Of a DNA stretch of 56,375 bases, positions 4,685 to 54,037 are shown piece after piece. The position numbers and the translations under genes are program-made. The DNA is from Chloroflexota bacterium. Lineage in GTDB: Bacteria > Chloroflexota > Limnocylindria > P2-11E. The notes under the pieces were generated by a model that searched no databases, was not told the DNA's origin, and was given only the letters and a program-made list of their open reading frames with translations. Where the stretch lies: positions 1 to 56,375 of the forward strand of contig VBIL01000037.1 of assembly GCA_005879975.1 (NCBI GenBank), given 5' to 3'. How positions within the stretch are numbered: position 1 is the first letter of the stretch; every line of letters begins with the position of its first letter.

Positions 4685-5223
4685 CGCGCGAGCTCGCCGT
4701 CTTTCGCGAACGCGCGATGTTCTGGCGGCGCGATGATCGCTCCCACGTCGAAGACGATCGGGCGCAAAGCCCGGCGCGCTTCGGCCGATCGCAGCACGTC
4801 ACGCGTGCTCCAGGCGCGACGCCGCCAGCCGATCCCCGCGTCTTCGCCTCGCAGAAGCGCCCGAACGAGAGCGCGGTCGGCGGGGCGTGGCCTTTGCCAC
4901 CGCCTGGCGAGTAGACGCCGTGTCTCCGAGCCGAGCGCGAGAGCGCGGACGTGCACGAGATCGAGCGCGAGCGCGGCCAACGGGAGGGGCGTAAGGTCGC
5001 GACCGATCGCCGCACGGGTCCCAGGCCGCGGGGCGAGCGCGCTGAGCACCGCCGTCGCGCGAACGCCGGCGAACGCGAGGAGCCGTTGGGCGCGGGCGAC
5101 CTGGGCGTCGTCCAGTTCGACGAAGGTCCCATCAGGCGTGCGCGCGAGGGTTGCCGTCCCGATGCTCGCGATCGCGCGATCGACGTCCCCTGCGGCGACA
5201 CGCTCACAGCGCAGGACAGCCAT
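4669..5223 (-). CDS. hypothetical protein of the Tad operon
   Basis: A 184-residue soluble protein, rich in Ala, Arg and Leu, with no membrane segment or signal peptide and no motif I recognise. Its ATG overlaps the cpaB stop by one base (TGATG) and its end overlaps the tadZ-like start by 16 bases, so it is co-translated with the pilus genes. The N-terminal ERVAAGDVDRAIASIGTATLARTP and C-terminal RPIVFDVGAIIAPPEHRAF parts look folded. It may be a lineage-specific pilus assembly or regulatory component; the function is unknown. Confidence 0.6.
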   Translation of the reverse strand: MAVLRCERVAAGDVDRAIASIGTATLARTPDGTFVELDDAQVARAQRLLAFAGVRATAVLSALAPRPGTRAAIGRDLTPLPLAALALDLVHVRALALGSETRRLLARRWQRPRPADRALVRALLRGEDAGIGWRRRAWSTRDVLRSAEARRALRPIVFDVGAIIAPPEHRAFAKDGELARWLFA

Positions 5224-5786
5224 CAGCGTGACCCGACGAGAGCGAGGATGAACGTGCTCGTCGCTATGCGGTCGGCGAACCGGATGTACGGTGCGCCGGT
5301 TTCGGCGCGAACGTCGAGCACCAGGGCGGCCTGCACGAGCAGCTCGGTGGCGCGGCCCGCGGGCGCGCGGCCACCCACGGGCACTGCGAGGACATCGACA
5401 CGCGCGCCGGGGACGAGCGCACCACCCACCGCCTGCGCCGCGCTCATCGGCAAGGCGACCCCGCGCATCCCTCGCGGCAGCGCAAGACCGGTGTGGAACG
5501 CGGCCGCGTCCTCCGCGAGCCCCGCGGAGAGCACGACCTGGCCGCGCCAGAGCGGAGCCCGTGGGATCTTGCCAAGGGCGGCGGAGACGTCGGCGACCGA
5601 TCCGGCCGGCACAGCATCCGGAGGAAGCGATGCGGTCCCAAGGTCATCGACCGTGAGCGGATGCGTCGCGTCGAGGTCGCGTGCCGCGACGATCACCGAG
5701 GAGCGCTGGGCGCCCGCGTAATAGAGGACACCGGCTAGCAGGCCGGATGCGACCGCGAGCCCGACCAGCGCGCGCTGTCCGATCAA
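5223..5786 (-). CDS. cpaB: CpaB-like Flp pilus assembly protein (SAF domain)
   Basis: About 187 residues. A single N-terminal anchor (ALVGLAVASGLLAGVLYYAG) is followed by a SAF domain with VIVAARDLDATHPLTVDDL, WRGQVVLSAGL and RGMRGVALPMSAAQAVGG, then GALVPGARVDVLAVP. This is the CpaB/RcpC arrangement; such proteins bind cell-wall glycan and organise the pilus export path. The open frame continues upstream to 5993, but that part is Arg-rich shadow of the preceding gene. The proposed TTG start at 5784-5786 overlaps the previous stop (TTGA) and puts the anchor at the N-terminus, as the family requires. Confidence 0.85.
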   Translation of the reverse strand: MIGQRALVGLAVASGLLAGVLYYAGAQRSSVIVAARDLDATHPLTVDDLGTASLPPDAVPAGSVADVSAALGKIPRAPLWRGQVVLSAGLAEDAAAFHTGLALPRGMRGVALPMSAAQAVGGALVPGARVDVLAVPVGGRAPAGRATELLVQAALVLDVRAETGAPYIRFADRIATSTFILALVGSR

Positions 5787-6733
5787 TCCTGCAGCGCCGG
5801 TGAGCGGACGCTCACCGCGATGTGAGCGTCGACCAGACGATGACCGGTCTCTGGCGTGTCGACCTCCAACCGAAAGACGAGCTCGTACGCGGAACCCGGG
5901 GGAGCAAGCCGCGCCCAGGACGTCCGGAATGGAGTGGCTCCGCCTCCCGACGTGCTCACCGCCTCGCCCCCGTCGCCCGAGGCGAGCGACCACGCTCGCA
6001 CCGCAACCTCACGATCGCCGGCAAAGGCGTGCAGCCAGATCGAGACGACTCGTCCGCGCAGGACCTCGATCCTCGTCAGCGGAACGCTCGCGGGTGCGAG
6101 CGACACACCCGGCCTAATGGGGAGCTGCGGCGGGTCGACGTCACGCGGTTCGCGCTCGGCGCCCTCGCCCGGCCCTTTACCGCCACAGCACGTTCCGGTC
6201 GGCAGCGGACCGGTCGCGGCCGGCGCCGCGACAGGCGCTGGGCCGGCGGAACTCGCGCCGGGCGCCGGCGTGTTCGCCCTCTGCCGCGCCAGCTCCGCGT
6301 CGTCCTGGAAGAAGACGACGCTCACGGGCACGAAGCCGTCATTCGTTAGCAGGTAGTTCTCGTAGTAGGTCCCCGCGACCGCTCGGCCGTCGGTGAGCGT
6401 GGCCCGGCCGTTGAACGCGGCACCGTCGAAAGTGCTCAGCGTTCCGGTACCGACCTCGTCGAGTACGCGCGCGTAGCTGCCCGTGGACTCGTGGATGGTC
6501 GTCGTGGTGTACGTCGTGAGCGGTCCGCTCACGGTGACGACGTCGGCGACGTACGTGTCGGTCACGTAATAGAGACCGGGCGGCGGCGCGATGAAGGGCG
6601 CCGGGTCCGCGGGCGGGGCAGACACGGGCGGCTCGGGTGATCCGCTCGCCTCGTCGTATGGATCCCAGGCGAGCGCGGGTGATGCTCCTGTTGCGAGCAG
6701 CGCGAGCGCGAAGGCAGCGGCGCGCAGGGTCAT
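5783..6733 (-). CDS. secreted hypothetical protein of the Tad operon
   Basis: A 316-residue protein with a clear signal peptide (MTLRAAAFALALLATGASPALA, cut before WDPYDE). A Pro-rich segment follows, then a Thr/Tyr-rich beta-like region (LTTYTTTTIHESTG), a Pro/Ala linker, a CC pair in TGTCCGGKG, and a C-terminal beta-rich domain. No family recognised. It sits between the tadG-like gene (ATGA overlap at 6730-6733) and cpaB (TTGA overlap), in the operon where diderm bacteria carry the rcpA/cpaC secretin, which is missing here. It may therefore be a wall-side or exit component of a monoderm pilus; this is inference from position only. Confidence 0.65.
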   Translation of the reverse strand: MTLRAAAFALALLATGASPALAWDPYDEASGSPEPPVSAPPADPAPFIAPPPGLYYVTDTYVADVVTVSGPLTTYTTTTIHESTGSYARVLDEVGTGTLSTFDGAAFNGRATLTDGRAVAGTYYENYLLTNDGFVPVSVVFFQDDAELARQRANTPAPGASSAGPAPVAAPAATGPLPTGTCCGGKGPGEGAEREPRDVDPPQLPIRPGVSLAPASVPLTRIEVLRGRVVSIWLHAFAGDREVAVRAWSLASGDGGEAVSTSGGGATPFRTSWARLAPPGSAYELVFRLEVDTPETGHRLVDAHIAVSVRSPALQD

Positions 6734-7215
6734 CGCGGCGAGCTCACGGCGAGAACGCCGATGGTCGTCACCGGGTGGAAGGCGAGCGCTCCGAAGACGG
6801 GTGTGCGCACCGGAACATCGGCGGCAAGGCGTACGGCAGGTCGTTGGTAACGGGCGCCGGTCCGCGCGTCGACTGATGGAGCTGATGGATACGCGGCGAT
6901 ATCCGCCATAGCGGCGATCTCCGACGACGACGCCGCGAGCAGCGCCTCCGACAGCTCGAGCTCGCGTTCGAAGTACTCGCGCGCCACGTCCGAGGCGTCG
7001 CCAGCGAGCCGGAGCGATCCGGTGCGCGACAGCTCGGCGTCGTCCTGATCGTTCACCGCCACGAGCGTCGCGAGGTCGGCGGCGGCGCGAACTCGCGCGG
7101 CCGCGACGCGGAGCGCGCCGAGCTGCAGCACGCCCGCGAGAACGGTCAAGAGCAGCGGCAGCAGGACAACCGTCGTGACGGCCGCGCTCGCATGGTCGTC
7201 GCGCAGCGCGTTCAC
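6730..7215 (-). CDS. TadG/Rv3654c-like pseudopilin-type protein
   Basis: A 161-residue protein with one N-terminal helix (AAVTTVVLLPLLLTVLAGVLQ) followed by RVAAARVRAAADLATLVAVND, the pattern of TadE/TadG-like and actinobacterial Rv3654c-type proteins, in which a hydrophobic helix precedes an Ala-rich amphipathic stretch. The remainder is an extracytoplasmic domain. The GTG start at 7213-7215 overlaps the tadE stop (GTGA) and the end overlaps the next ATG. These proteins are thought to be minor pilins or pilus-tip or wall components. The family call is moderately sure. Confidence 0.7.
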   Translation of the reverse strand: MNALRDDHASAAVTTVVLLPLLLTVLAGVLQLGALRVAAARVRAAADLATLVAVNDQDDAELSRTGSLRLAGDASDVAREYFERELELSEALLAASSSEIAAMADIAAYPSAPSVDARTGARYQRPAVRLAADVPVRTPVFGALAFHPVTTIGVLAVSSPR

Positions 7216-7607
7216 CGGTTCACCTCTCCGCGCGAGATCGCGCTCGAACGAATTGGGAGAGTCGTCGTGAAAAGGAATGGGATCGCGACACGGTATTCCG
7301 TGCTGACCGAAACGCTGACGGGCTCGCGCCAGCCAACGCGTGCCGGCGCGATCTCGATGGTGGCGACACCGGGATCGATCCCCGAGGCGCGGAGCTGTTC
7401 GGCGAGCAGACCACGAACCTCCGCGCCGTCGCCTCCGATCTCGCCGGCGTAGCGCGCGGCCTGGACGGTCGCGGCGTCCTGCGCGAGCCAGCGTTCGAGG
7501 GCAGCGCCGAACTCAAGGATGGAGAAGAGCAGCGGGACGAGGATCGCGATCATGAGCGTCATCTCGAGTGTCGCGAGGCCACGTTCCTCGCCGACGGCTT
7601 TCGTCAA
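7212..7607 (-). CDS. tadE: TadE-like minor pseudopilin
   Basis: About 131 residues. After a short leader, ERGLATLEMTLMIAILVPLL gives the Gly/Glu+5 type pilin-like cleavage motif and helix, followed by FSILEFGAALERWLAQDAAT, as in TadE. I place the start at the TTG at 7605-7607, which overlaps the pilin stop (TTGA), the same junction type as cpaB. The frame is open far upstream (to 8180) because the ACT-domain gene shares it; the intervening residues are Arg-rich and non-coding in character. TadE is a minor pilin processed by the Flp prepilin peptidase, which is not in this window. Confidence 0.82.
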   Translation of the reverse strand: MTKAVGEERGLATLEMTLMIAILVPLLFSILEFGAALERWLAQDAATVQAARYAGEIGGDGAEVRGLLAEQLRASGIDPGVATIEIAPARVGWREPVSVSVSTEYRVAIPFLFTTTLPIRSSAISRGEVNR

Positions 7608-8180
7608 CGCACCGCCTGCATCTGGCTCACGAGCGCCTGAAGACGCGCGACGAGTCCGTTGTTCCAGGCCGACACGCCGATGGCGAGGGTACCGAGGACG
7701 ATGGCCGCGCCGATCACGTACTCGATCGTCGCGAGGCCAGCGCGCTCGGTCACGAAACGATGCAGCGCCAACATGAACCCCTCCCGCTGGTGATGCGAGG
7801 AGGCTCTTTGCGGCGCGGGCATCTTTCACGCCCAAAGCGAGCGTTGTGCTCTTCTTCGACTGGCCGAGGACGTACGCGGACTCGATATTGACCTTGCCCT
7901 TGCCCAGCCGAGTCGCGGCGCGCGCGAGCGTGCCGGGGCGGTTCGCGAGGCGTACCTCGACGATCTTCCGGTCGCCTGAGATCCGGTACTTCTTCGCCTT
8001 GATGGCGCGACGTGCCTTTGCCGCGTCCTTGTCGTCCACGACGATGTGGACGGTCCCGGATCCGCCGCCGGTGGTCGCCGCGATGCTCCGCATGCTTATC
8101 CCGGCATCGCCTAGGGCACCTGCGAGGACGCCGAGCTGGCCGGCGCGGTTGGGCAGCTTGATCGTGAGTTCTACCGCCAT
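7212..8180 (-). CDS. tandem ACT-domain protein; frame has no stop before tadE
   Basis: The first about 130 residues (8180 down to about 7790) form two ACT regulatory modules: MAVELTIKLPNRAGQLGVLA, then IVEVRLANRPGTLARAATRL. ACT modules bind small ligands such as amino acids. A good site (GGGGAGGGAACC) precedes the ATG. A related ACT protein lies at 53660-54037 and stops at the equivalent point, but here no stop occurs: the frame runs through the pilin gene (in another frame, as Arg-rich text) into tadE and ends at 7212. A lost stop or missing intergenic segment near 7790 is more likely than a true ACT-TadE fusion. Only the N-terminal part is trusted as ACT protein. Confidence 0.6.
   Translation of the reverse strand: MAVELTIKLPNRAGQLGVLAGALGDAGISMRSIAATTGGGSGTVHIVVDDKDAAKARRAIKAKKYRISGDRKIVEVRLANRPGTLARAATRLGKGKVNIESAYVLGQSKKSTTLALGVKDARAAKSLLASPAGGVHVGAASFRDRARWPRDDRVRDRRGHRPRYPRHRRVGLEQRTRRASSGAREPDAGGALTKAVGEERGLATLEMTLMIAILVPLLFSILEFGAALERWLAQDAATVQAARYAGEIGGDGAEVRGLLAEQLRASGIDPGVATIEIAPARVGWREPVSVSVSTEYRVAIPFLFTTTLPIRSSAISRGEVNR
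7604..7774 (-). CDS. flp: Flp-type major pilin
   Basis: A 56-residue Flp pilin beginning MLALHRFVTERAGLATIEYV. The motif G-LATI-EY matches the Flp cleavage site (Gly followed five residues on by Glu-Tyr) and leads into the hydrophobic core IGAAIVLGTLAIGVSAWNNG and a short tail. The ATG at 7774 is preceded by a strong GGAGGGG ribosome binding site; the frame extends to 7822, but that start would lack one. It is the first pilus gene in the operon and the probable main fibre subunit. Confidence 0.88.
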   Translation of the reverse strand: MLALHRFVTERAGLATIEYVIGAAIVLGTLAIGVSAWNNGLVARLQALVSQMQAVR

Positions 8181-8508: not shown

Positions 8509-9120
8509 CTAGCGCGCTTTGCCGATGCCGGTCCTGATCTGGGCCTCGCTCAAAGGTCCTCCCAGCTCGAGATGGCGGATCACACCGTTCTTGTCCACGA
8601 AGAACGTGCTCGGCAGGCTGAGCACGCCGAAGCGGCGCGTCGTCTCGCCGTTCGTGTCAAGCACCGGCTGAAGCCGATCCAAACCGAGCTGCTCGAGGAA
8701 CGAGGTGACCTTGTCACCCGACTCCTGGAGATCCACCTCGAGGAACACAACATCCGGCTCAGTCGCGGCGACGCGCTGGAGGGCCGGCATTTCCTGGCGG
8801 CAGGGCTGACACCACGTGGCCCAGAAGTTGATCACGACCGTCTTCCCGCGGAAATCCGAGAGGCGCACGACCCGGCCGCCCTCCCCGTTCCATTCGAAGT
8901 TCGGAGCGTTCGCGGAGATCCTCCCGCCGGCACCTTCGCCCTCGATCTGCGACCGGACGATCCCGACCTCGGACGTCGCCGTCGGTGGTCGTGCGAAGGG
9001 GAGCGAAGGCCAAACGAGCGCGAGGAGCGACGCCAGCGCGATCGCACCGATGAGGATCGCGGCGAGCCACCGCGGCAACGCGGTCGGCTCACGATCCGGA
9101 CGTTCCACCGTGTCGACCAT
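8509..9120 (-). CDS. TlpA/ResA-like membrane-anchored thioredoxin
   Basis: A 203-residue thiol-disulfide oxidoreductase. It has one N-terminal anchor (WLAAILIGAIALASLLALVW), then an extracytoplasmic thioredoxin fold with GKTVVINFWATWCQPCRQEM (catalytic CxxC), VVFLEVDLQESGDKV and the cis-Pro loop SLPSTFFVDKNGVIRH. The ATG at 9120 lies 2 bases after the ccdA stop; the longer open frame upstream is ccdA shadow. It probably receives electrons from CcdA to reduce exported protein thiols or apocytochrome c. Confidence 0.88.
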   Translation of the reverse strand: MVDTVERPDREPTALPRWLAAILIGAIALASLLALVWPSLPFARPPTATSEVGIVRSQIEGEGAGGRISANAPNFEWNGEGGRVVRLSDFRGKTVVINFWATWCQPCRQEMPALQRVAATEPDVVFLEVDLQESGDKVTSFLEQLGLDRLQPVLDTNGETTRRFGVLSLPSTFFVDKNGVIRHLELGGPLSEAQIRTGIGKAR

Positions 9121-9816: not shown

Positions 9817-10247
9817 TCAGCGTAGGCGTGAGGTCGCGTAGACGACCAGATCGAGACCGTAGAAACGGCCGGGGCCCTCGAGGGTCATCGCGCACTTCTC
9901 GGCCACGCGCCGTGAGCGGGCGTTGTCGGGGACGATGAGCGCGACGATCCGCAGGAGGCCGATCTCGCCGAACCCGTAGTCGACGAGCGCGCGGGCGGCC
10001 TCGGTCGCGTACCCCCTCCCCCACGCGCGCGGCGCGAGCTCATACGCGACCTCCACCTCCGGGCCCTTCCCCTCGACCGGAAACAGGCCGACCTGGCCGA
10101 GGAACTCGGCCGTCGCACGGAGCTCGAGCGCCCAGAGCCCGAGCCCGGGAGGCTGGCGCGCCGTGAACGCCATGGTGCGTCCGAGGCGCTGCGCCGTCTC
10201 CGGTACGGCCTGATGACGAGCCGCTCGGTCTCGAGAGGGATGGGCAT
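9817..10247 (-). pseudogene. RimJ-type GNAT acetyltransferase, internal deletion with frameshift
   Basis: The N-terminus MPIPLETERLVIRPYR is in one frame. From about 10200 a different frame continues as ETAQRLGRTMAFTARQPP, GLGLWALELRATAEFLGQVG, APRAWGRGYATEAARALVDY and VALIVPDNARSRRVAEK, the acetyl-CoA-binding core of RimJ-like GNATs. The normally intervening 25-30 residues (EDD...DPEV...) are missing and the frame is lost at that junction. The product would be non-functional unless the junction is an assembly error. It lies between the trans-sulfuration gene and ccdA. Confidence 0.75.
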
Positions 10248-10248
10248 G

Positions 10249-11397
10249 CTATCCGATCGCTTGTGCCAGGTCGTCGATGAGATCGTCGACGGTCTCGATG
10301 CCCACCGAGAGGCGCACGAGTCCCGCCGGCGGCGCGAGCTTGGTCCCCCGGACCGACCCGTGGGTCATCGCCAGGGGGATCTCGACGAGCGATTCAACGC
10401 CGCCGAGCGATTCGGCGAGCGCGAAGATCTTCGTCCGCGCTGCGACACGCTTGGCGAACGTCTCGCCCCCGCGCAGCTCGAACGAGAGCATCCCGCCAAA
10501 CGCGCGCATCTGGCGGCGGGCGAGCGCGTGCTGCGGATGCGTGGCGAGCCCTGGGTAATTGACGCGCGTGACCTTGGGATGCTCCGCGAGCCATTCCGCG
10601 ATGGCCTGCGCGTTCGCGGAGTGCCGGTCCATTCGCACGCCGAGCGTCTTCGCGCCGCGGAGCACGAGCCAGGCGTCGAACGGACCCGGGACGCCGCCGG
10701 CCGCGTTCTGCACGAACGCGAGGCGATCGCGAAGCTCCGCATCGTTCCCCGCGAGCGCACCACCGACGACGTCGGAGTGCCCGCCGAGGTATTTCGTCGT
10801 CGAGTGAAGGACGAGGTCCGCACCGAGCTTGATCGGCCGCTGCAGATAGGGGCTCGCGAAGGTGTTGTCCACGACCGCGAGCGCCCGCGCCTTCTGCGCG
10901 ATCTCGGCGAGTGCGGCGATATCGAGCACCTTGAGCAGCGGGTTCGAGGGCGTCTCGATCCAGACCAGCTTCGTACGTGAACGAACGGCGCGCCGGACGG
11001 CGTCCAGCTTGCGCATGTCCACCGCCGTCAGGTCGATGCCCGCGCGGTCGAACACCCGCGCGAAGAGGCGATACGTTCCGCCGTAGACATCGTCTCCCAT
11101 GACCACGTGATCGCCCTTCGAAAGGAGGTGCGCGACCGCGTCGGACGCGGCCATCCCCGACGCGAACGCGAGGCCCCAGCGCGCGCCTTCGAGCGCAGCG
11201 AGGCACGTCTCGAGCGCCGTACGCGTGGGATTGCCGGTGCGCCCGTATTCGTAGCCCTTGTTCTTGCCGACGGCTTCCTGCGCGAACGTGGACGTCTGAA
11301 AGATCGGGACAGTCACCGCCCCGGTCAGCCCTTCGGGATCTTGACCGGCGTGGATCGCAAGGGTCTCGAATCCGGGCTTGCGCGGGCTGCTCTTCAC
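10249..11397 (-). CDS. PLP-dependent trans-sulfuration enzyme (cystathionine gamma-synthase/lyase type)
   Basis: A 382-residue Cys/Met-metabolism PLP enzyme. The N-terminus FETLAIHAGQDPEGLTGAVT and the motif VPIFQTSTFAQ are diagnostic. The cofactor lysine lies in LHSTTKYLGGHSDVVGGALA, with VWIETPSNPLLKVLDIAALA and VVDNTFASPYLQ upstream of it. The C-terminal LVEIPLAMTHGSVRGTKLAP and VRLSVGIETVDDLIDDL complete the fold. It could be MetB (synthase) or MetC/cystathionine gamma-lyase; the nearby cystathionine beta-synthase favours reverse trans-sulfuration, but the sequence alone does not decide. GTG start; only 29 bases separate it from a divergent gene. Confidence 0.88.
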   Translation of the reverse strand: MKSSPRKPGFETLAIHAGQDPEGLTGAVTVPIFQTSTFAQEAVGKNKGYEYGRTGNPTRTALETCLAALEGARWGLAFASGMAASDAVAHLLSKGDHVVMGDDVYGGTYRLFARVFDRAGIDLTAVDMRKLDAVRRAVRSRTKLVWIETPSNPLLKVLDIAALAEIAQKARALAVVDNTFASPYLQRPIKLGADLVLHSTTKYLGGHSDVVGGALAGNDAELRDRLAFVQNAAGGVPGPFDAWLVLRGAKTLGVRMDRHSANAQAIAEWLAEHPKVTRVNYPGLATHPQHALARRQMRAFGGMLSFELRGGETFAKRVAARTKIFALAESLGGVESLVEIPLAMTHGSVRGTKLAPPAGLVRLSVGIETVDDLIDDLAQAIG

Positions 11398-16734: not shown

Positions 16735-18178
16735 CTAATAGCCGAGTGCGATCCCGACCTTGGTCCCGTCGGTCCCGCCGCGCAGACCGCCGGCCTCGAT
16801 CATGATCGCGGCCGGTCGCGCAAAGAAGGTCGCCAGGACATCCTCGACCTTGACCTCGACCTCGTGTCCCATCTTCGCGAGCTCGGCACGCACGTGTTCG
16901 GGTATCCGCGAATCGACCTGCAGGCTCTCGCCCTCGTCGTGAACACGCGGCCGGCTGGTCGCCTCTTGCGGGCCGTCGCCGTAGTCCAATGCATTGACGA
17001 TGGTCTGGACCACCGCGGTCATGATCTTCCGTCCGCCAGGTGCTCCGCACACGAGGAAGGGACGGTCCCCGCGCAGCACGAGAGTCGGCGCACCCGCCCA
17101 GAGCACGCGCTTACCCGGCGCGATCGAATTCGGCCGGTCCGGACGTGGATCGAACCAGTACGTGCCATTGGTGATCAGCATTCCCGTGCCGCGCGCCATC
17201 ACGGCGGAGCCGAAACCGCCCCCGAGCGTCGCGGTGAGCGACACGAGCATCCGATCGCCGTCCACCGCGTTCACGTGAGTCGTGTTCGGCAGGTCGGCCA
17301 TCGCGGAAAGGCGCTCGACGAACGCCGTGCGTGACGCCACAGCGATCCGGTGGAGGCTCTCGGCGCCGAGCTGGGGCCAGCGGCGCAGGTCATCGCGCCC
17401 AAGGATGGCCAGCGTTCGTGCGACTGTCGGACCGCCGGTCAGGCCTGGAAGCGTGAGCACTTGATGGCCGCGATAGTCGAGCGCAAGCGGCGCGAGCTCG
17501 GCCGCCTCGTACGTCGAAAAATCCTCGCGCGTCAGGATCCCTCCCCAGATCCGGCTGCACGAGACGCTCGGGAGGCTCGAACCCGGTCGGAGGCCGATAC
17601 GGCGCGCCGCCCTCGCGGTAGTAGACGCGCTTCGCCTCCGCGTTCTTGTGCAGTCGCGACGCGAATGCCCCGAAGATGAGCGTGCTGTACCAATCGATGA
17701 GGAAGCCCTCTTTGGCGAGACGGATCGCCGGTTCGAAGAGGCGAGCCCAAGGGAGCTTGCCCAAGCGGCGATGAGCGAGCTCATATGCCGCCACCGCGCC
17801 CGGCACGCTCACCGACAAGGGACCCTCGGCGTTCGCGTCGTCTTTCACCGCGGGCCATCCGTACATGCCGGCGCGCGCATCCCCACCGCGGAGCTCGAAC
17901 ATGTCCTCGCGCGACGCGATCGGCGCGCGAGTTGAGCCGTCGAACGCGCTCGTCTTGCCGTCCCGCCAGATCACCAGGCCCGCGATGCCGCCGAGCCCGC
18001 TCCCGATCGGCGAGGTCACGCCGAGCGCGAAGGCCGTCGCCAGCGCGGCGTCGAGGGCGTTCCCGCCCTGACGCAACATTTCGACGCCCGCCTCGGCAGG
18101 AAGCGGGTCGGCCGTGACCATGCCTTTGCTCGCGGCGGCCTCGGTCTTAGTGAAAAGCCACTCGCTCCGCGTGCCCAC
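16735..18178 (-). pseudogene. ggt: gamma-glutamyltransferase, internal deletion with frameshift
   Basis: The first part (from GTG/ATG at 18178) reads MVTADPLPAEAGVEMLRQGG, GNALDAALATAFALGV, LSVSVPGAVAAYELAHRRLG and ends in frame with PPERLVQPDL. At about 17548 the homology jumps to another frame, GGILTREDFSTYEAAELAPL, and continues through the mature small-subunit start NTTHVNAVDGDRMLVSLTAT (catalytic Thr) and GTGMLITNGTYWFDP to the end. About 30-35 residues normally found between PDL(A) and GGILTRED are absent and the frame changes. Intact enzyme would be an exported, self-cleaving glutathione hydrolase. Broken gene or assembly error. Confidence 0.8.
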
Positions 18179-18193
18179 TGTGCTTTTCTCGCG

Positions 18194-18548: not shown

Positions 18549-19163
18549 ATGCGGTATGCGGCGGTCGGCTTCGACCTCCTCACCGCGCTGCTCGACACGT
18601 GGTCGCTCTGGTCGGAGATCGCCGGCGGCCGCGAGCTCGGCATGCGCTGGCACGCGGCCTCACAGGAGCTCCTCCGCGGAAAACGCTATCGGCCTTTCGA
18701 GGAGATCGTGCGTGAAGCCGCGTCGGGAGTCGGACTCGACGCGAAACGTCCGGCGGAGCTCTTGCGGCGCTGGGGCCGCGACTTCGAGCCCTGGCCTGAT
18801 GTGCCGCCGGTTCTCGAGCGCCTCGATGGCAGCCGTCGATTCATTGTCACGAACTGCTCCCGCAAGCTCGGCCGGCTGGCCGCGTTTCGCGCTGGGCGCT
18901 TCGAGCTTGTCGTGACCGCTGAAGAGGCCGGCGCATACAAGCCCGATCCGCTTCCTTATCGGATGGCGCTTGATCGACTCGGCCTCGACCCGGTGGAGGT
19001 TCTCTTCGTCGCCGGCTCCGCCCACGACGTCGGCGGGGCTGCACGCGTCGGAATGGACGTGTACTGGGCGAATCGCGGAGGCGCGCCCGCGCCGACCGAC
19101 GGCGCCGCGCTCCGCGAGGAGCCCGACCTGCGTGGATTGCTCGAGACGCTGGGCGCATCGTGA
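18549..19163 (+). CDS. HAD-superfamily hydrolase
   Basis: A 204-residue haloacid-dehalogenase-like protein. The nucleophile Asp is in VGFDLLTALLDTW (motif I), the Ser/Thr motif in RRFIVTNCSRKLG, Lys/Asp in GAYKPDPLPYRMALDRLGL, and motif IV in EVLFVAGSAHDVGGAARVGM. Note that motif I has FDLLTAL in place of FDxxGTL. Similar to 2-haloacid dehalogenase/phosphatase types; substrate unknown. Its stop overlaps the GTG of the nuclease gene (GTGA), so the two are probably co-expressed. Confidence 0.8.
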   Translation: MRYAAVGFDLLTALLDTWSLWSEIAGGRELGMRWHAASQELLRGKRYRPFEEIVREAASGVGLDAKRPAELLRRWGRDFEPWPDVPPVLERLDGSRRFIVTNCSRKLGRLAAFRAGRFELVVTAEEAGAYKPDPLPYRMALDRLGLDPVEVLFVAGSAHDVGGAARVGMDVYWANRGGAPAPTDGAALREEPDLRGLLETLGAS

Positions 19164-20983
19164 TCGGTCGCGCGGCCCTCACCCAACGCGACGACGGAAC
19201 CGTCGTCGACCCGCGCAGCGATGTGGACTGGCTGGAGTGGGTGCCCGCCGGCGAGGTGCGCAACTGGTGCGACGGGGACTTGCTCGTCGACTGGCTCGCG
19301 GAGTACGGCGAACAGCACGGTTTCCGTCGTGACGATCGGCTGCCCGGTTACGACCGAGTCTTCGATCTGCCGCGTTTCCTCATGGAGCAGGGGCGCCGCT
19401 TCGAGCAGGCTCTCCTCGTCGATCTCCAGGGGCGCTGGCCTGTGACGCGAATCGCGACGCGTCCGGATGAGGCCCGCTCTCTCGCGGCGGCAGAAGCGAC
19501 ATGGGACGCGATGAAGGACGGTGCGCCGGTGATCGCGTCGGCAGTGTTGCGGGATCCGGAGCGGCGCACTTTCGGGGTGGCGGACCTGCTGGTCCGGTCC
19601 GACATCCTGGGTGAGCTCTGCCCTGACGCGTTCGTCGGGGATCAGCTGGAGCTTCCAGTGGCCGCGATGCGGCACGGGCGTCACTACCGCGTGGTCGACG
19701 TCAAGTTCTCAACGCTGCACCTGCTGAAGGACGGCGGGCTCGGCGCGACTGACATCGACGTGATGGCCCAGGCCTGGATATATAACGAGGCGCTCGGACG
19801 AGTACAGGGATTTGTGCCACCGGCCGCCTACGTGGCGGGCCGCGCGTGGAGGCAGGGTGCCGCCCGGGGCGATCGGTGCTGGGAACGGCTCGCGCGCGTG
19901 CCTTCGGACGCGTACGTGCGCTCCCGCGACGAGGACCTCGCGAGCATCGTTGCCCGCGCCTGCGCATGGATCCGCCGCCTGCGGACCGAGGGCGCCGAGT
20001 GGCGCGTGCTGCCGATCCCATCGGTGCCCGAGCTCTGGCCGAACATGAAGGCGAACGGCGACTTCCCCTGGCACACCGCAAAGGCCGAGATCGCCATCAA
20101 GCTGGCGGATCTAACGATCCTGCCGCGCATCAACGCTGAGCTTCGCGGCGCCGCGCACGCGACGGGCGTGACGCGATGGGATGACGCGCGCACGTCGGCG
20201 GTCCTCTTCGGTCTGGATGGCGAGCACGCGCGAACGCTGGACGCGGTGATCGCGGTGAACCGCGACGGCGGCGAGCCCGTGCGGCCAGCCCGCGTCAGCG
20301 CCGACGGGGAGCGCTGGCGGATCCCGCCCGCCGCCGAGGCCTTCGTGGACTTCGAGTTCGTGCACGACCTCGATGACGACTTTCGCTCGTTCCCGCGAAA
20401 GGGAGGTCAGTCACTCATCTTCCAGATCGGGTGCGGAACGTATCGCGATCGCCAGTGGTCCTTCGACCAGTTCACGGTCGATGACCTCGGTGTGGAGGCG
20501 GAAGGACGCATGATCGACGAATGGCTCACTCACCTCGCGGCACTCGCCGCCAGCGCGGGACTGGCATCGGCGAGCGACGTGCGACTCGTCCACTGGTCGC
20601 TCGCTGAGGAGTCCAGCTTCGAGCGCGCGTACGAGTCGGCGCGATCTCGTCACCCGGACCGGGAATGGCCGGCGCTCCAGTGGTACGACCTCCTCGGCCG
20701 CGTCTTCCGTGCGGAGCCTGTCGTCGTCAGAGGCGCGTTCTCGTTCGGACTGAAGGCGATCGCGCGCGCGTTGCGCGCGCACGGGCTCATCTCCACGGAA
20801 TGGGGCGATGGTCTCGCCGACGGCGCGGGCGCGATGGCCGGCGCGTGGTCCGCCGCCGCGGATGCGCGCGCTCGCGGCCGGAGTCTCAAGGAGTCGCCGG
20901 TCATGCGCGAGATCGCCGCCTACAACGAGGTCGACTGCCGCGTGATGGCGGAGATCCTCGATCACCTCCGGCGCTCGCACTAG
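19160..20983 (+). CDS. two-domain nuclease: RecB-like PD-(D/E)XK plus RNase H-like DEDD exonuclease
   Basis: A 607-residue protein. The N-terminal half has a Cas4/RecB-type nuclease core: QGRRFEQALL (about residue 80), TFGVADLLVR (D142) and YRVVDVKFST (D180, K182). The C-terminal half resembles YprB/TM0106-associated RNase H-like domains: EAFVDFEFV (DxE, about 396-398), then SLIFQIGCG and a terminal YNEVDCRVMAEIL. The middle has a helical NMKANGDFPWHTAKAEIAIK segment. I see no helicase motifs and no Cas4 Cys cluster. It is translationally coupled to the HAD gene and followed by an ABC exporter. The substrate is unknown; a DNA repair or defence role is only inference. Confidence 0.7.
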   Translation: MIGRAALTQRDDGTVVDPRSDVDWLEWVPAGEVRNWCDGDLLVDWLAEYGEQHGFRRDDRLPGYDRVFDLPRFLMEQGRRFEQALLVDLQGRWPVTRIATRPDEARSLAAAEATWDAMKDGAPVIASAVLRDPERRTFGVADLLVRSDILGELCPDAFVGDQLELPVAAMRHGRHYRVVDVKFSTLHLLKDGGLGATDIDVMAQAWIYNEALGRVQGFVPPAAYVAGRAWRQGAARGDRCWERLARVPSDAYVRSRDEDLASIVARACAWIRRLRTEGAEWRVLPIPSVPELWPNMKANGDFPWHTAKAEIAIKLADLTILPRINAELRGAAHATGVTRWDDARTSAVLFGLDGEHARTLDAVIAVNRDGGEPVRPARVSADGERWRIPPAAEAFVDFEFVHDLDDDFRSFPRKGGQSLIFQIGCGTYRDRQWSFDQFTVDDLGVEAEGRMIDEWLTHLAALAASAGLASASDVRLVHWSLAEESSFERAYESARSRHPDREWPALQWYDLLGRVFRAEPVVVRGAFSFGLKAIARALRAHGLISTEWGDGLADGAGAMAGAWSAAADARARGRSLKESPVMREIAAYNEVDCRVMAEILDHLRRSH

Positions 20984-26442: not shown

Positions 26443-27482
26443 CTAGCACGCGCAATAGTATTTTCCGGCCGGTCCCTCGTTCAGGATGAGCTGGGCGAAC
26501 GGGCCCGGATCATCGGGGTCCCACACCGCGTTCACGATCTCGCCGGTCGCCGGGAAAAGCGGCCTGGTCTTCGCGAGCAACGCGTAGTCACGCTCGTAGA
26601 TCCAGCGCATCCCATCGCGCAAATCCCCGGCGCGCTCGCCCTGGCCGATCGCTTCGGTGTACGCCAGCCACGGCAGATCTACGCCGCTGGCGATCGGAAG
26701 ACCGATCCACTTCCACACCCGCGGGTTCACATCGAGGAGCAGATGCTCCTCGCGCGCGGGATCCCAAATGAACTCAACCTCGCTGATCCATACTGCTCAA
26801 GCTTCCGGCCCACGAATCCCCCGCGCACCTCGCCGTCAGGCGCGATGAACGAGCAGAACGAATAGAACCCGCCAGGAGGCACGTCGACGATCTCCTGCGC
26901 CACGCAGGCAAGATCGGAGGCCTCGCGCGCGAAACGGAGAAGCTCGGCGGCGTTCTCTGCCCGGAACACCTTCACGCCGAAGCGGTCGTAGAAACGACGC
27001 TGCTCGGCCGGCTTGACGATCGCCGGATAGCGAATCTCGCGGGAGGTGGCCTTCGGATCGTTCAGCGTGAACGTCTTGGGGATCGGAATGCCGAGGTGAT
27101 GAGCGTCTGCGTACAGCCGGCGCTTGTCGAGGACCGCGTCGATCACGGACAGCTCGCTGAAAGGGATGCGGTAGCAGGCCTCCAGCTGGGAGCGGTAGCG
27201 GGCGACCGCCATCACCCACTCATCGTTCGTGGGAAACAGGACCGCACCCTCGCCGAAGCGCTCGGCGTTGTCGAGCAGGTACTGCACGAGGCCCTTCTCA
27301 TCCTCGAGAGGATTCGGACAGGTATGCCGCTCCCTCACGGCGCGCGACGCTTGCCCGAGGCCGCGGGGGTCCGGATCGAGCGCAATCACCTCGACGCCAT
27401 GCGCGGCGAGCGAGCGCGCGACGGCCAGTCCCGTGATATGGCAGTTCATGACGAGAGCGCGTGCGGTGCTAGACGCGGTCAA
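26443..27482 (-). pseudogene. ATP-grasp ligase-like gene, internal deletion with frameshift
   Basis: The first part reads ARALVMNCHITGLAVARSLA, VIALDPDPRGLGQASRAVRE, EGAVLFPTNDEWVMAVARYR, KTFTLNDPKATSREIRYPAI and VKPAEQRRFYDRFG, up to GFVGRKLEQY (about 26793). Homology then resumes in another frame with ISEVEFIWDPAREEHLLLDV, then NPRVWKWIGLPIASGVDLPW, to the end at 26443. Roughly 30-35 residues that normally join these blocks are absent. ATP-grasp proteins of this style form C-N bonds or modify carbohydrates or peptides. As written the gene is dead. It overlaps the trans-sulfuration gene by 14 bases. Confidence 0.78.
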
Positions 27483-40353: not shown

Positions 40354-40885
40354 ATGCTCCGCCAGCTCGACCACGTCGTTATGGTGGTCCGCGACCTCGC
40401 AGCGGCGATGGACGACTACCGGCGGCGCGGATTCACCGTCACTCCGGGCGGCGAGCACGCTGACGGCCTCACCCACAACGCGCTGATCCCGTTCGCGGAC
40501 GGAAGCTATCTCGAGCTCGTCGCTCCTCTCCGACGACCTGGCCGCGGACACCGCCGCGCTCGGCGAGCTCGTTGCGCACCCTCCGGCACAGGGCGGGCGG
40601 ACCCGTCCCGACGGGACGCCGCTCAAGTGGCGGACGGCGATACTCGTGCCTCCGCTCCCCTTCCTCATCGAGGACCTCACCCCACGCGATCTCCGCGTCC
40701 CGGGTGGCGCACAGATGCAGCACGCCAACGGGGCGACCGGCCTTGAGCTCGTCGCGATCGGCGCGCAAGACGTCGCCGAGACCGAATGGGGATACGCGAA
40801 GCTTCGCGAACGTGGCGCGCCTACGATCGAGCTCCGGCCAGCGGAGACGGATGGCCCGAAGGACATCCGTTTCAAGGTCAGCTAG
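40354..40885 (+). pseudogene. VOC/glyoxalase-like protein, internal deletion with frameshift
   Basis: The N-terminus MLRQLDHVVMVVRDLAAAMD, then HADGLTHNALIPFADGSYLE and LVAPL, is in one frame. From about 40530 the homology continues in another frame: LSDDLAADTAALGELVAHPP, GGRTRPDGTPLKWRTAILVP, PLPFLIEDLTPRDLRVPGG to the stop at 40885. In homologues I recall, about 25-30 residues (GHRWW-type block) lie between these parts. The deletion leaves the frame broken. The family covers small metal-dependent vicinal-oxygen-chelate enzymes. Confidence 0.72.
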
Positions 40886-50351: not shown

Positions 50352-50368
50352 CGCACTAGCACTCTTCC

Positions 50369-53659: not shown

Positions 53660-54037
53660 CTAGACGCGACGAGCGGCCGCCAGGTCGTCGACGGCCACGA
53701 TCAGCTCCTTATCACCGGCGCGCTCGCCAGCGGTGTACAGAGCAGTGATGTTCACGCCCGCCTCGGCGAGCCGGCGCGCGTAGCGGCCAAGCTCGCCGGG
53801 CTCGTCGCCGAGTGACACGGACAGCACCTCGCGCTTCGCGGTGACCTTCCACCCGCCGACCTTCAGCGCGGCGAGAGCGCGGTCTTCATTGTCGACGACG
53901 AAGTGGAGATGCCCGCGGCCATTCTGCGAGAACGCCGCGGCCGCTTTGATGTTCACGCGCGCCTGGCCAAAGAGCTCCCCGATCTCCGCGATGACGCCAG
54001 GGCGGTCCTCGGTCTCCACGACGATCTCCGTAGGCAC
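53660..54037 (-). CDS. tandem ACT-domain protein
   Basis: A 125-residue protein with two ACT modules: TEIVVETEDRPGVIAEIGEL with VNIKAAAAFSQNGRGHLHFV, then VLSVSLGDEPGELGRYARRL with VNITALYTAGERAGDKELIV. A small ligand-binding regulator; no enzyme domain. It ends 3 bases from the polymerase start. It is a paralogue of the ACT protein at the head of the pilus operon and provides its expected length. Confidence 0.82.
   Translation of the reverse strand: MPTEIVVETEDRPGVIAEIGELFGQARVNIKAAAAFSQNGRGHLHFVVDNEDRALAALKVGGWKVTAKREVLSVSLGDEPGELGRYARRLAEAGVNITALYTAGERAGDKELIVAVDDLAAARRV

Follow-up and report, generated by a model that had tools for sequence, protein, structure and literature searches.

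The 322-residue open reading frame that joins an ACT-domain gene to a tadE-like gene on the contig analysed here is very probably artefactual and due to a local assembly error, its cause lying in the assembly rather than in the cell. The contig, hereafter the window, is 56,375 nt long and belongs to a draft genome that totals 2.66 Mb over 210 contigs and is 82.7% complete (window, G000:C47). In the true arrangement, which would be that found in relatives, the ACT gene would stop after about 131 aa; a leader of about 100 nt would come next, bearing a promoter-like element as well as a hairpin that covers the ribosome site of flp, and flp, tadE and the remainder of the tad operon would follow. 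The assembly would have dropped about 89 nt at 7794-7805, removing the end of the ACT gene together with its stop codon and bringing ACT in frame with tadE. The missing segment is of more value than the fusion itself, and the comparison with relatives also exposes a conserved promoter-like element that is absent from the assembled window.

The open frame extends over 7212..8180 on the reverse strand and has an ATG start. The ACT frame stays open through the flp region and terminates with tadE, and on this point the ORF listing agrees with the earlier note. The N-terminal part of the frame matches PF01842 in two stretches with 49.6 bits against a cut-off of 27, which identifies it as an ACT domain. 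Flp (ERAGLATIEYVIGAAIVLG) is encoded in another frame than ACT and is, with its 56 aa, a prepilin as defined in the available part of PMC4322843, i.e., by a G/XXXXEY site ahead of a hydrophobic stretch and a length of 50-80 aa; flp orthologues are present in all ten same-genus loci, and profile searches gave no Pfam or NCBIfam match for the protein. The arginine-rich centre of the fused frame, which had been called non-native, turns out to be the flp gene translated out of frame. The tadE-like protein reaches 17.6 bits with PF07811, under the cut-off of 22.9, in a gene order that is the same as in the relatives. The ACT paralogue, which had been said to stop at the equivalent position, has its stop at 53660 and a length of 123 aa, close to that position. 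The features concerned are collected in the table.

Table. Features of the ACT-tad region and further genes with losses in the window
Feature	Position	Strand	Remarks
cpaB/rcpC	5223..5993	(-)	private in-frame loss of 84 nt at about 5278-5286; 28 residues shorter
TadE/G-like pseudopilin, next tad operon gene	6730..7215	(-)	PF13400 20.5 bits, under cut-off 22.3
tadE-like minor pilin	7212..7607	(-)	TTG start assigned at 7607; TTGA overlap with flp stop; ACT frame
flp, Tad/Flp major prepilin, 56 aa	7604..7774	(-)	ATG at 7774; G/LATIEY processing site
predicted hairpin covering the flp Shine-Dalgarno sequence, retained	7778..7806	(-)	RNAfold of 26 leaders
junction, about 89 nt missing (ACT end, stop, promoter-like element)	7794..7805	(-)	versus the relatives compared
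ACT-domain gene, native part	7806..8180	(-)	last few codons and stop absent; two ACT stretches
GNAT acetyltransferase gene	9817..10361	(-)	two frames; private loss of 88 nt at 10200
gamma-glutamyltranspeptidase gene	16738..18193	(-)	two frames; loss of 92 nt at 17544, versus G004 only
ATP-grasp-like gene, 388 aa	26446..27512	(-)	two frames; loss of 97 nt at 26789, versus G004 only

With respect to the relatives, some part of the frame was matched in 91 of the 101 genomes searched (the own genome included; one genome per species), and the comparison was based on the 15 loci in which ACT, flp and tadE are adjacent, ten from the same genus and five from genus g7. In all 15 the ACT gene stops at 125-131 aa, and the distance from ACT residue 128 to flp is 93-111 nt as compared with 22 nt in the window. 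Three of them (L007, L012 and L017) likewise have tadE in the ACT frame, and in these, as in the other twelve, the ACT stop precedes tadE. Nine named records from Chloroflexi metagenome genomes, which are at least in part identical to the contigs of the 15 relatives so that the two sets are not independent, have 1043-1052 nt where the window has 966; a tenth match among the named records is an archaeon and covers the ACT part only. Relative to the closest relative, G004, the missing segment amounts to 89 nt, with equally good breakpoints across 7794-7804. It comprises the last ACT codons (ending in KALGRR in most same-genus relatives), the ACT stop and, in addition, a conserved dyad that has a further box downstream of it. 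The suspicion that a stop and a promoter segment are missing near 7790 is thereby supported as to the stop and as to a promoter-like element, a putative promoter. A 156-nt query from G004 gave only matches of up to 36 nt in the own genome (best E 0.008), a weak test for the segment being present elsewhere, in which the window's own flanks were likewise unlisted.

An assembly error is the likely cause because the same contig carries several similar losses, which the earlier note had missed. When compared to G004, the window is without eight blocks of 84, 89, 88, 92, 68, 97, 80 and 63 nt, and in the reverse direction G004 is without one block of 90 nt. In an anchored comparison, three of these losses are private to the window: at 7805 there are 79-89 extra nt in all nine named relatives, at 5283 there are 81-84 extra nt in all eight that have both anchors, and at 10200 there are exactly 88 extra nt in all six that have both anchors. 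Differences of 0 were found at the control points 3000 (1/1), 4400 (8/8), 7000 (9/9) and 8300 (6/6), and a fifth control point, 6200, is variable (-24 to +45 nt in eight relatives). The losses at 17544, 26450, 26789 and 40522 were compared with G004 only, no other relative having been found, and for the one at 50354 there is, beyond G004, just a 50-nt match in one genome. Outside the window, comM on another contig of the own genome has lost about 110 nt versus G004, its ChlI match spanning 47 of 121 positions while that of seven relatives is full; this is one of three further own loci compared with G004, and the other two have no such loss. Single losses of like size are occasionally seen in relatives too, for example 85 nt in G002 and the block mentioned above in G004.

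Losses that are private at 5283, 7805 and 10200 and by which conserved genes are split or shortened are what local assembly errors in short-read metagenomes would be expected to leave. The available part of PMC7111523 defines such an error by a point without exact read support and describes how a wrong consensus at single points leads to incomplete or incorrect protein-coding genes, as in the window, but that part describes no typical loss of about 90 nt. Grassland soil samples were, according to the available part of PMC6784897, assembled mainly with IDBA-UD with k up to 200. The split GNAT, gamma-glutamyltranspeptidase and ATP-grasp-like genes are probably assembly errors as well, and it would be wrong to take such disrupted genes of the contig for pseudogenes. 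Some of the length differences between the window and G004 are natural, given that there are other gaps of 16-42 nt and of 251-1264 nt, the larger ones on both sides; the 42-nt gap at 9096, seen in just two of the eight named relatives with both anchors, looks natural too. At 18878-19908 of the window, overlapping matches to G004 with net differences of 352 and 329 nt point to a repeat, either collapsed in the window or expanded in G004.

The error might also have taken a special form, in which scaffold gaps were stripped of their runs of N and the joins are such stripped gaps and not wrong overlaps. This is rather the less expected form of an assembly error. In its favour, four of the six junctions examined (of the eight blocks) have no microhomology, which speaks for an assembly error in general too, and N runs of 9-61 nt have been kept in some loci of related genomes; against it, the window itself contains no N. 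Evidence against an assembly error of either form is that the matches flanking the 26450 block overlap by 8 nt and that two junctions allow some microhomology.

It is improbable that the lineage has truly lost the ACT stop and the flp promoter through a deletion of 89 bp. In that case the tad operon would rely on ACT for its transcription, and ribosomes coming off ACT would cross the start of flp, with an ACT-TadE fusion as a conceivable product. Such a deletion would be compatible with the intactness of flp, of its Shine-Dalgarno hairpin and of tadE, and with a microhomology of up to 3 nt at the 7805 junction (also present at 40522); however, it would call for separate losses of 84-110 nt in cpaB, the GNAT gene, the gamma-glutamyltranspeptidase gene, the ATP-grasp-like gene and comM. 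That the frame encodes a functional fusion, with an ACT ligand sensor tethered to a pilus subunit, can be dismissed almost entirely, since although 322 codons are open, its centre is flp out of frame and homologous ACT-TadE proteins of the same length, which the earlier note had named as the observation that would speak against its reading, are found in none of the 15 relatives and none of the nine named records; a real ACT-TadE protein or family was therefore rejected, and the fusion should not be entered in databases as a protein.

Returning to the segment lost through the presumed assembly error, its conserved element is bipartite and reads GGTAC-N4-GTACCGrCC-N6-TCCYATNCG. The dyad GGTAC-N4-GTACC occurs two to five times per genome in 11 genomes, and with 36 sites versus 22 for a reversed control in these genomes it is only moderately enriched. 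A longer pattern, GTAC-N4-GTAC-N12-YYATNSS, which was derived from sites already observed, is matched 28 times across 15 of the 28 family genomes, the reversed control not once; when one mismatch is allowed, the 11 genomes of the genus yield 63 matches versus 17 for the control, and many of the 63 show no sign of function. By a weight matrix that was built from these 28 sites and so inevitably scores them high, no position of the window exceeds 8.7, and the maximum within the 4-kb tad locus is 1.0. In the loci collected, which are enriched for targets as many were retrieved through the pattern itself, 64 distinct sites score at least 12 on both strands, ten matrices with permuted columns giving 0-5 on one strand, and at least 11 of the 64 are either reverse readings of the dyad or sites upstream of other genes. 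GTAC-N4-GTAC may resemble cyanobacterial LexA boxes, MerR operators or ECF promoters. Since the palindrome is also found upstream of flp in four loci without a convincing ACT match (L020, L022, L023 and L027) as well as upstream of three other gene families, a promoter or operator role fits better than that of an ACT terminator.

With a target defined by a weight-matrix score of at least 14, the element precedes flp in all ten same-genus relatives and in eight of 15 further loci (14 of the family and one of the order), and there is none at flp of L013, L014, L016, L019, L021 and L025. The second target is comM, with the element at all eight genes that have their start, i.e., in eight of 11 genus genomes including the own one, and with no comM match among the matches listed for the other three. 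The third is a gene for an HNH protein: the element is present at seven of the nine closest genes, the remaining two having a dyad one base shorter or being cut by a contig end, and at none of 21 more distant loci. The fourth, encoding a secreted hydrolase, has it at 18 of 23 genes; of the other five, one is truncated where its contig ends, another scores 8.6 and three, from genus g8, have no element. The own genome keeps the element at its HNH, hydrolase and comM genes (G000:C194:11473, G000:C108:13218-13248 and G000:C180 at about 22,940, respectively), the flp copy being the only one missing from the assembly.

The start codon lies exactly 32 nt past the element in all six HNH and all eight hydrolase genes examined, two of the hydrolases having an additional start codon at 30 nt; in comM the start is at 33 nt in G022, and the comM frame of G007 first offers a start at 14 nt. 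This fixed spacing in two unrelated gene families argues for the element being a promoter, or an operator at a promoter. As to the identity of the products, a target in G022 matches the YifB/ComM AAA ATPase (TIGR00368, 526.9 bits versus a cut-off of 362.4), and dprA (PF02481) comes after a comM fragment in G009. The HNH protein, a two-unit HNH/endonuclease-VII-like nuclease, matches PHROG 2255 (E 3.9e-66) and no Pfam family above the cut-off; its similarity to PDB entries of phage coat proteins (E 0.0002) was attributed to chance. The hydrolase is weakly PGAP1-like, under the cut-off. Weaker versions of the element, with scores of 15.5 and 16.4, were observed 49 nt (L143, G008:C59) and 47 nt (L144, G006:C203) before the same 149-aa gene (MQVSQVAYDRF...), a possible fifth target.

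We tentatively propose that the element might define a small DNA-uptake regulon in this uncultured family of soil Chloroflexota, in which the Tad pilus would be an uptake pilus and which would be run by a sigma factor or an activator; its members would be the Tad/Flp operon, comM (with dprA following in one genome), the HNH/endonuclease-VII-like nuclease and the secreted alpha/beta-hydrolase-like protein. Because ComM and DprA handle incoming DNA in transformable bacteria, and because Flp pili are needed for transformation in Micrococcus luteus, this is a fair, if unproven, hypothesis and the regulon a candidate one. The available part of PMC4322843 reports that the Flp/Tad pilus of M. luteus is required for natural transformation and that tagged pilin is made under competence-inducing conditions, and in both organisms an Flp prepilin with a G/XXXXEY site is encoded beside tad genes; M. 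luteus, however, belongs to another phylum, and the link to uptake rests here only on the element shared with comM. Against such a regulon stand the hydrolase and the nuclease, which have no known part in uptake, the fact that no regulator was found, and comEC, where no convincing element was seen in 11 loci reaching only 1.5 kb to each side, the three matches with up to two substitutions lying in or near the Competence domain. A limited literature search brought up no account of such a regulon from Chloroflexota. Both the control of the Tad pilus and a possible DNA-uptake programme in these uncultured bacteria are testable from existing genomes and transcriptomes.

The predicted hairpin over the flp ribosome site may in addition limit the translation of the pilin. 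In single-sequence RNAfold predictions, made with no pairing control, 23 of 26 leaders, that of the window included, have at least four of the five Shine-Dalgarno bases paired, and the folds have a z of -2 or below in 16 of the 26, the window's own z being -1.25. Searches of 12 loci for a known RNA family upstream of flp gave no Rfam match up to an E of 1. Across the leaders of L001 and L003-L027 the hairpin recurs with a varying stem sequence.
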